Assembly (NCBI GenBank): GCA_030154045.1
Contig: JASKKU010000005.1
Coordinates: 1 to 40,967, forward strand
Length of the DNA: 40,967 nt
Source: Candidatus Woesearchaeota archaeon
GTDB lineage: Archaea; Nanobdellota; Nanobdellia; Woesearchaeales; JASKKU01
Reading direction: 5' to 3'
Position numbers and translations under genes: made by a program. How positions within the stretch are numbered: position 1 is the stretch's first letter; each line of letters opens with the position of its first letter. Below the pieces are notes generated by a model. It made no database searches. It had not been told where the DNA came from and saw only the letters and a program-made list of their open reading frames with translations. Shown in pieces: positions 30,857-33,108 of the stretch.

Positions 30857-31453
30857 TTAATCAGAAATAAAATCCTCAGTTTTGTACTCAAACTCTTCGT
30901 CTTTGCTGATCTTTCCTCTAAGTTTCAAGTATTCTCTTGCCAATAACCAAAACACTAATGCTAAACTCTTTTTACCCTTGTTATTGCATGGAATAACTAA
31001 GTCAATCTTGTTAATAACGTTATTTGTATCGCATAATGCAACAATAGGTATTCCTACTTTTACAGCATCTTCAACAACATTTCTGTCAGTCCACGGGTCT
31101 GAAACAACAACAACCTTAGCTTCAGTAAATTCTTTAAGGTTAGTATTAGTCAAAATTCCTGGCAGATATCTACCAATCATAGCTTTTGCGCCAGTAGCTT
31201 TCTTGAACATAGCAATTGGTTTCCAAGCAGATTCCCTTCTTCCACAAACTAAGATGTCCTCAGGCTCATAGTTTGCCAAGAATTTAGCAGCAATGATAAT
31301 TCTTTCATTGATTTTTTCCAAGTTCAAAACTGATAAACCATCAGGTCTCTTTTTGTAGATAAAAGGTTCCATAGCTGCTGTTTTGAACTTAGTTCCGATA
31401 TGTACTCCGTATTTTAGATATTCCTCTGTAGGTAATAATAATTCACTTGCCAT
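30857..31453 (-). CDS. rps2: 30S ribosomal protein S2
   Basis: 198 residues from the ATG at 31453, preceded by the SD GGAGGG (10-nt spacing). The track start at 31471 lies just upstream of the SD. Archaeal S2 marks: YGVHIGTKFKTAAMEPFIYK, VCGRRESAWKPIAMF, GRYLPGILTN, EAKVVVVSDPWTDRNVVEDA and VIPCNNKGKKSLALVFWLLARE. The usual archaeal neighbours (S9, L13, RNA polymerase N/K, enolase) are absent here. A structured leader precedes it (separate entry), which makes autoregulation plausible. Confidence 0.96.
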   Translation of the reverse strand: MASELLLPTEEYLKYGVHIGTKFKTAAMEPFIYKKRPDGLSVLNLEKINERIIIAAKFLANYEPEDILVCGRRESAWKPIAMFKKATGAKAMIGRYLPGILTNTNLKEFTEAKVVVVSDPWTDRNVVEDAVKVGIPIVALCDTNNVINKIDLVIPCNNKGKKSLALVFWLLAREYLKLRGKISKDEEFEYKTEDFISD

Positions 31454-31474
31454 TTTTTCATTTCCCTCCATTTT

Positions 31475-31577
31475 TAAACAGTTAAAACCGCAAGAACTAA
31501 GTTCTTGCCGTCTTATTATCGCCCAGACAGCTGTTTACAGAGTCCTCCAAAAGGAGCCAACCTCTGTAAAGGGCAAT
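31475..31577 (-). promoter_or_regulatory. Structured 5' leader of rps2, candidate regulatory RNA
   Basis: On the minus strand a long-range stem ATTGCCC/GGGCGAT (31571-31577 with 31518-31524; one G.U) encloses a 9-bp perfect stem TTTACAGAG/CTCTGTAAA (31562-31570 with 31534-31542) topped by CTCC-TTTT-GGAG (31545-31556). A separate 8-bp hairpin GCAAGAAC-TTA-GTTCTTGC (31490-31508) follows. A TATA-like tttaaaa at about 31601-31607 predicts a transcription start at about 31577, exactly at the first stem. TAAACAG (31537-31531) could instead pair with CTGTTTA (31481-31475) just ahead of the SD (31464-31469), which would break the 9-bp stem. Such alternative pairing is typical of switches, but no known RNA family is recognised. 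Confidence 0.6.
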
Positions 31578-31602
31578 GTTTTTTGAGATAAAAATTTAGT
31601 TT

Positions 31603-33030
31603 TTAAAGTTTTTGGTTTTTATTGGCATTGATATTTTCTTTTGCACCTCTTTGATTACTCAAAAAATCATTCAAAGCACGATAATTATTAGTTTCTTGAA
31701 TCAGTGTTTCTATAATCTCAAGATAATCAAAGAAGGATGTATAAGGTTCAAGATTTTTTTCTTTAATCTGTTTTTCATAGTTTTTTAGTTTTTCATCTTC
31801 AAAAGAAATAGTCCTAATTCGATATAAAGAATCTTTATTGTATTTAGCAATTTCACTTAATTTGTTTTCATCAAAATCAAGTTTTAAATCTTTAAACGGG
31901 TCTGAAAATCTATTAAAGGATTTACCGCGAGTATAAAAGAGATTCAAGAACAAATCCACATTCTCAACATACTGCTTAAACTTAATTTCAGGCAATAGAT
32001 AGGCAAAAGAGAGTTCATTAAAAACTATTTTTTCATCAATACTATTCGTATAATCAACAATTAAAACCTTTGCAGAATCAAAATGAGTTGAGGGTATCAC
32101 GCGCACGCTAAGGTTTTTATCATTATATCTTTTATTATCAAGAATGTCATTTAAAACATGATGGACCAAAGCCTCTACTTGGCTTTCTTTGATATTCAAA
32201 CCATATTTTATTATTGATGATATTCCATATTGTTCATATAACTCATTAACAGCAGGCAATAAAAATTGATATTTTGCTAAAACTTTATTATCTGTTTTTT
32301 GTTTGTTAACAAAATCTGAAAGCTGTATGGCCTGTTCTTTTATATCATTTAAGTTTAAATCAGACAAGTGCTTAGATAAATGAACTAGAGACCAAACAAA
32401 GAATTCTTCTTTATTGTATAGATAACCATAGCCCAGCTTTTTGTCATAAATCTGAGAATTTAGTGCAAAAAGGTAATTATTTAATCCTTTAATCATATCA
32501 AACAACAGATTCTGAGATTCTGCACAAACAAAAAGAGCATTATCAATTTGGGTGTATAAGTAGTTTAATCCGGAATTTGAATATACAACAGCATTAAGAT
32601 CAGGCAAAAATTTTTCTATAGAATCTTGTTTGTCTTTTTTAAAGTGATATGATTTAATAAAATTAAAGAGAATAGATGATTCAACTTTGTTATAACCTCT
32701 ATTTTTAATCAGCTTTTTAACTAATTCTTCAATGTTTTGTCCATCGTTAAATTTTTGGAAAGGTTCTTCAAAATCTGTCAGAATAATGGTGTTTGCATCA
32801 AAAAAATTAGTCTTGTCTAATTCTTTTTTTATATATTGTAAGTCTTTCAAAAGCACTTTTTTACTTTGATTGGAGCTGGCTTTAAGAAAGTCCTCATAAT
32901 AATTTCTCGTTTTTTGCTGAAACTCAAAGAAATCTTTTGAAATGTCTATTTTCAAAAAAGGTAAAGAATATTCTTCAAAAAGGGAAAGATAATATTGAGA
33001 GAAATCAAGTATTTCTTGAATCAGTTTCAT
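31603..33030 (-). CDS. Unrecognised protein family, member B (paralogue of 24516..25871)
   Basis: 475 residues from the ATG at 33030. A TATA-like ttataaat about 23-30 nt ahead supports it, and the track's TTG at 33036 is rejected. It shares ordered blocks with member A at 24516: LLFDMIKGL, EEFFVWSLVHL, SIIKYGLNI, LIVDYTNSIDE, KQYVENVDLFLNLFY and FSDPFKDLKLDF. The conserved core runs from about residue 170 to 400. The helical N-terminus (about 1-165) differs from member A, and the C-terminus is basic and Asn/Lys-rich. No membrane segment or enzyme motif is seen. Its stop codon overlaps the predicted TATA of the rps2 leader. Function unknown. Confidence 0.8.
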   Translation of the reverse strand: MKLIQEILDFSQYYLSLFEEYSLPFLKIDISKDFFEFQQKTRNYYEDFLKASSNQSKKVLLKDLQYIKKELDKTNFFDANTIILTDFEEPFQKFNDGQNIEELVKKLIKNRGYNKVESSILFNFIKSYHFKKDKQDSIEKFLPDLNAVVYSNSGLNYLYTQIDNALFVCAESQNLLFDMIKGLNNYLFALNSQIYDKKLGYGYLYNKEEFFVWSLVHLSKHLSDLNLNDIKEQAIQLSDFVNKQKTDNKVLAKYQFLLPAVNELYEQYGISSIIKYGLNIKESQVEALVHHVLNDILDNKRYNDKNLSVRVIPSTHFDSAKVLIVDYTNSIDEKIVFNELSFAYLLPEIKFKQYVENVDLFLNLFYTRGKSFNRFSDPFKDLKLDFDENKLSEIAKYNKDSLYRIRTISFEDEKLKNYEKQIKEKNLEPYTSFFDYLEIIETLIQETNNYRALNDFLSNQRGAKENINANKNQKL

Positions 33031-33108
33031 TAGCAAGATAAGTTCTAAAGGGATTTATAATTTTTACTAAGATATAGCTTTATTTTTTTAGGGAAACTTA
33101 AGACTAAA

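Follow-up and report, generated by a model that had tools for sequence, protein, structure and literature searches.

A conserved pseudoknot in the rps2 leader of Woesearchaeales: a candidate uS2 autoregulatory RNA with a competing hairpin

The rps2 gene, which encodes ribosomal protein uS2, is preceded in many Woesearchaeales by a structured mRNA leader. Comparison of homologues gives good support for an H-type pseudoknot, in which a helix P1 (AUURCC/GGYRAU) is crossed by a second helix P3 and an A-rich loop is present. One strand of P3 is predicted to be shared with a downstream hairpin (P4). We consider it reasonably probable that this RNA serves the autoregulation of uS2 and acts through strand exchange.

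The DNA studied, called the window in the following, is the complete contig C5, which has a length of 40,967 bases and is part of an 805-kb genome. All features reported here are on its minus strand. The rps2 product matches PF00318, and the closest relatives of the gene are found in Woesearchaeota, i.e., DPANN archaea. Of the two potential start codons, ATG 31453 (gene at 30857..31453) is likelier than ATG 31471 from the list of open reading frames (ORFs), because the Shine-Dalgarno (SD) sequence GGAGGG (31464..31469) sits 10 nt before the former while the latter overlaps it. Counted to ATG 31453, the leader covers 31577-31454 (124 nt), and no second copy of this region was found in its own genome. 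The TATA box TTTAAAAA (31600..31607) was identified by sequence and its spacing recurs in relatives. It overlaps the stop codon of an ORF of 477 aa (31603-33036), which lies directly upstream of the rps2 promoter and shows no Pfam match.

The window leader has a minimum free energy of -43.2 kcal/mol (z = -4.74), and none of 200 dinucleotide shuffles is equally stable. Thus, the stems claimed for it in an earlier note, which are all present in the sequence, exceed chance expectation. P1 is formed by AUUGCCC (31571..31577) and GGGCGAU (31518..31524). The P2 hairpin (31534..31570) is located in loop 1 of the pseudoknot and comprises a 9-bp stem (TTTACAGAG 31570-31562 / CTCTGTAAA 31542-31534), an internal loop (GUUG-G / GGA) and 4 apical base pairs (CTCC/GGAG). 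It is absent or variable in relatives. Further downstream follow the 8-bp P4 hairpin (GCAAGAAC 31508-31501 / GTTCTTGC 31497-31490) and the SD. What had been missed is P3, a 7-bp helix of GCUGUCU (31525..31531) with AGACGGC (P3b; 31507..31513). Since the 3' strand of P1 is within the loop of P3, the predicted fold is an H-type pseudoknot; its loop 3 (AAUA, 31514..31517) is A-rich in relatives. Also missed was an extended form of P4 (UAAGACGGCAAGAAC / GUUCUUGCGGUUUUA, 31483..31515; as DNA TAAGACGGCAAGAAC 31515-31501 / GTTCTTGCGGTTTTA 31497-31483), which covers P3b and contains a conserved UUCU.

Next, we studied whether this architecture recurs. The upstream regions of rps2 in relatives show the layout TATA - AUURCC - optional P2 - P3a - GGYRAU - A-rich stretch - P3b - P4 - ATG, with L107 (GCC-AAAC-AUGCU-GA-GGC-AAAAAAGA-AGCAU) and L108 as smallest members. 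With a finder for this layout, 80% of 88 distinct leaders score at least 24, while dinucleotide shuffles do so in 3% and reverse complements in 11% of cases. For scores of at least 28, the respective values are 56%, 0.7% and 1.1%. Counts based on the finder's picks (alignment A1) lean towards structure, since the finder demands pairing. We therefore took 80 further rps2 upstream regions unselected (60 distinct) and placed their P1 strands by sequence profile only. Covariation was judged based on shuffles, slid controls and the sequence-anchored held-out set.

Among the 44 sequence-anchored unselected relatives, the variable (R-Y) pair of P1 is complementary in 43 (30 G-C, 13 A-U). The sole mismatch (L154) seems to result from an anchor being misplaced, and this leader was omitted from alignment A2. 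The P3 helix is found in 89% of the unselected set, compared to 4.5% when flanks are shuffled. In alignment A1, 86.7% of the cells are paired, compared to 24-45% in slid controls. For A2, in which all six P3 pairs show both-sided changes, the value is 80.8% compared to 24-50%. Loop nucleotides of the compact pseudoknot are near-invariant. L170 and L186 carry extra hairpins inserted in loop 3, and P3 is kept beyond the insertion. As far as sequences can tell, the structure is conserved by covariation among homologues, as is looked for in ribosomal protein leaders (r-leaders).

As a check, the earlier note had proposed to build a covariance model from the upstream regions of rps2 homologues, and the outcome of this check is positive. 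Model R1, which is restricted to the P3 pairs and has the window among its seeds, matches 62/80 of the extra regions at E-values up to 0.01. When the window is left out, as in model R2 (derived from A2), its leader is nevertheless recovered, if weakly (E 0.026). That is, the idea of a regulatory RNA in front of an archaeal rps2 is strongly supported by homologues, while the architecture first given for it was incomplete.

The same note had derived a transcription start from the TATA box, which agrees with the comparative data. In the window, the distance from the start of the TATA box to the first A of P1 (A31577) is exactly 30 nt. A TATA-like box is found upstream of this conserved A in 95/108 leaders (9% expected in shuffles), and in about 86 of these 95 (counted from the list) the distance is 29-31 nt. 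Given this fixed spacing, the pseudoknot probably begins at nucleotide +1 of the mRNA. Furthermore, this A is invariant in A1, including the sequences in which it has lost its pairing in P1, likely because it is the +1 nucleotide, such that P1 would use the first nucleotides of the mRNA.

To describe the distribution of the leader, R1 was run on 353 genomes of Woesearchaeales, of which 168 are matched at E-values up to 0.05, nearly always once each. This count is a lower bound, because strict filters were used and R1 misses a genome of the same family (G001) whose leader is plainly readable. We checked 81 matches against a known rps2. Of these, 78 lie on the strand of the gene and no more than 250 nt upstream of it, i.e., they place a structured RNA in the 5' leader of a ribosomal protein gene. 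Two of the remaining three are 308 and 379 nt upstream with an intervening small ORF, and one is on a second contig. None of the 81 precedes a metabolic or transport gene. Sampling of the class and the phylum, with samples overlapping the order, gave a single further match outside Woesearchaeales (G357). We rejected it as a false positive, as it is away from the genome's own rps2 (on another contig) and apparently antisense to a coding frame.

Other families of the class contributed 40 upstream regions of rps2, and 39 of these are without the leader. In many of the 39, a TATA box is located shortly upstream of the start codon, or rps2 runs on from an upstream gene. The exception (L246) has a minimal form that is identical in sequence to L107. 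Also within Woesearchaeales some members are without the element, e.g., L033, L075, L104 and L105. In L033 and L075, rps2 is directly downstream of an apparent enolase gene (with a gap of 75 nt in L033; judged from the upstream sequence in L075), and gain of the leader may accompany the exit of rps2 from an enolase operon. Since the neighbours of rps2 differ among genomes, rps2 is the common target of the leader; it is also the only ribosomal protein gene downstream of it. In two cases (L244 of G178, L245 of G152) a small ORF lies between the leader and rps2 and may thus be co-regulated. Two records (L053, L084) are titled Methanosarcinales and Nomurabacteria, respectively. Their rps2 is closely related to the woesearchaeal gene, which suggests misbinned or mislabelled contigs.

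We then evaluated the relation of P3 and P4. P3b is also the 5' arm of P4, and P3 and extended P4 are therefore mutually exclusive. Of 111 leaders, 61% have a P4 hairpin (score of at least 16) that shares at least 3 nt with P3b, compared to 3.6% with shuffled downstream sequence. An overlap of at least 4 nt is observed in about 71% (21% in shuffles), such that the overlap is frequent without being universal, and some leaders are without P4. For 68 leaders chosen for overlap, the energies of P3 plus remaining P4 and of extended P4 show a median difference of 1.8 kcal/mol, while the window has a preference of 3.9 kcal/mol for extended P4; both values omit P1 and coaxial stacking. Two exclusive, nearly balanced states hence look conserved. 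The UUCU motif, in the window part of 31497-31483, is present in 63/63 P4 hairpins analysed and within 35 nt of P3b in 99/118 leaders (37.5% of shuffles).

A different pair of exclusive folds had been suggested before, in which TAAACAG (31537-31531) pairs with CTGTTTA (31481-31475) just before the SD. This pairing is present, but we find no support for a switch based on it and rejected it: a complement of the pre-SD 7-mer occurs in 11% of shuffles of the window leader, and CTGTTTA is missing from the leader of the nearest relative (L003). The predicted mutually exclusive pairing that is conserved is P3 versus extended P4.

The autoregulation that we propose would work as follows. P1, P2 and P3 would form first during transcription. 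Once made, the 3' arm of P4 would displace P3b, open the pseudoknot and leave the ribosome-binding site free (ON). When in excess over 16S rRNA, uS2 would bind and hold the pseudoknot, such that extension of P4 would be prevented. Repression would then act on initiation, which takes place about 40 nt downstream of P3, either by occlusion or by the block of a bound protein-RNA complex (OFF). The order of events is suggested by the position of the pseudoknot, which is transcribed before the 3' arm of P4 and can thus form first and be displaced unless held. We infer uS2 as ligand as well as the direction of the switch. The natural holder is uS2 because rps2 is the common target, because this protein has been proven to repress its own synthesis in gamma-proteobacteria, where it acts on its own mRNA through the leader, and because it contacts 16S rRNA, namely at h35-h37 and h26 (PMC10931766).

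Within this proposal, we are least certain about the OFF step. Sequestration of the SD as its main component is weak: in forced-state folding, the two states are predicted to expose the ribosome-binding site to a similar extent (0.59 vs. 0.65 unpaired, a comparison biased by the pseudoknot state freeing more strand by construction), which counts against the explanation we favour. Transcription attenuation with P4 as terminator was set aside, as reading the leaders (uncounted) revealed no consistent U tract after P4.

We also looked at likeness to rRNA. In 61/118 leaders UGA directly precedes GGY. The resulting RCC...UGA-GGY, noticed after the fact and failing for the window's own subtype, resembles GCC-GUGA-GGU in the 16S rRNA of this genome, which we take to be h36. 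The single 16S sequence considered has G-U at the h36 position that matches the R-Y pair of P1, and we expect h36 to show little variation across genomes. We treat this likeness as a lead only. Mimicry of SD/anti-SD pairing by P1 (GAGGUGAU vs. AUCACCUC) fits only some members and was rejected as a general feature, because the third P1 pair alternates between A-U and G-C. Taken at its widest, the proposal reads that a pseudoknot on the first mRNA nucleotides senses free uS2, is resolved co-transcriptionally by a hairpin and in some members imitates 16S helix 36, which would make it a new class of archaeal cis-regulatory RNA. In this full form it is a tentative suggestion, which we hold with clearly less confidence than autoregulation as such.

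Other readings of the leader have to be weighed against uS2 autoregulation. The fold might be a constitutive 5'-end structure that protects from decay, or a standby or enhancer site that aids loading of the 30S subunit, without any sensing of uS2. Use of what appear to be the first mRNA nucleotides would suit such a role. Furthermore, in the archaeal 30S subunit uS2 is located where the mRNA exit chamber ends (PMC7005279), so that the leader could touch ribosome-bound uS2. A general stabiliser is, however, expected on other mRNAs as well, while the element is restricted to rps2, and the mutual exclusion of P3 and P4 suggests switching. We regard this reading as unlikely, even if it is the strongest of the competitors. 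Nearly the same holds, at a slightly lower level, for the idea that rps2 is incidentally controlled by a riboswitch with a small molecule or an ion as ligand, or by an RNA that senses another signal of translation status. Folds of this kind, small H-type pseudoknots with an A-rich loop, are typical of aptamers (preQ1-I, SAM-II), and compactness and near-invariant loop nucleotides fit this picture. Against it stands that matches occur essentially once per genome, at rps2, with 0/81 in front of metabolic or transport genes.

A protein other than uS2 might be bound, e.g., L7Ae at the internal loop of P2. This loop (4-nt bulge, GC...GGA) is found in 14/118 leaders compared to 3/710 shuffled loops, and archaeal L7Ae is described to control its own mRNA via a k-turn (PMC5539422, PMC6298567). 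But the loop is confined to a minority, with many members having a plain P2 or none, and canonical tandem G-A pairs are not evident: by eye, the 14 leaders show a single G/A opposition next to the 4-nt bulge, while a k-turn is defined by a 3-nt bulge and tandem sheared G-A pairs. Binding of another protein instead of uS2 is thus improbable in our view. The loop itself (31562-31534 in the window; in relatives, e.g., L089, L095 and L187) is a possible protein site. Finally, AT-rich intergenic DNA easily yields short complementary runs such as TAAACAG/CTGTTTA, and the stems could be without function. Given the z-score of -4.74, the compensatory changes in unselected relatives and the fixed TATA spacing, chance is the least credible reading.

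If uS2 autoregulation applies, the leader would be a probable feedback switch balancing S2 with ribosomal RNA in uncultured tiny archaea. Being single-copy, widely conserved and with two defined exclusive folds, it offers a directly testable model of archaeal translational control by an mRNA leader, and the covariance model can be used for annotating Woesearchaeales genomes.

Concerning known systems, no Rfam 15 family scores above its gathering cutoff in the window leader or 12 related loci, and a permissive Rfam 15 search of the window leader gave chance-level matches only. We found no description of the leader in the open-access literature searched (subscription papers being outside that search), nor any such cis-regulatory RNA for archaeal uS2 or DPANN lineages therein. 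By position and conservation, the predicted structure belongs to the known kind of r-protein leaders, whose defining functional feature is ligand binding. With the preQ1-I and SAM-II aptamers it shares a two-helix pseudoknot with A-rich third loop; it differs by an optional large hairpin in loop 1, its restriction to rps2, no known ligand pocket and no Rfam match.

Few cis-regulatory RNAs have been confirmed or even predicted in archaea (PMC7247131). The archaeal S15, eL15 and L4 r-leaders (Eckert and Weinberg 2020, PMC7247131) are likewise computationally predicted in front of archaeal r-protein genes but relate to other proteins and to Halobacteria, Methanomicrobia, Euryarchaeota and Archaeoglobi; neither uS2 nor Woesearchaeota are mentioned in that survey. 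The archaeal L7Ae leader (PMC5539422, PMC6298567) is also an r-protein leader with translational autoregulation and proposed folding on binding, yet it employs a k-turn hairpin instead of a pseudoknot/hairpin exchange and a different protein. The gamma-proteobacterial rpsB leader (Aseev et al. 2008, via PMC10931766) is likewise a structured 5' leader of the uS2 gene. Its operator precedes the ribosome-binding site without including it, as in the leader presented here, and its architecture is reported to be shared with uS2 sites on 16S rRNA (PMC10931766); on the other hand, it belongs to bacteria, controls rpsB-tsf and depends on the bacterial protein bS1. Compared by description, and with no Rfam match linking the two, the woesearchaeal fold differs in that it starts at the presumed +1 nucleotide and carries a competing hairpin.
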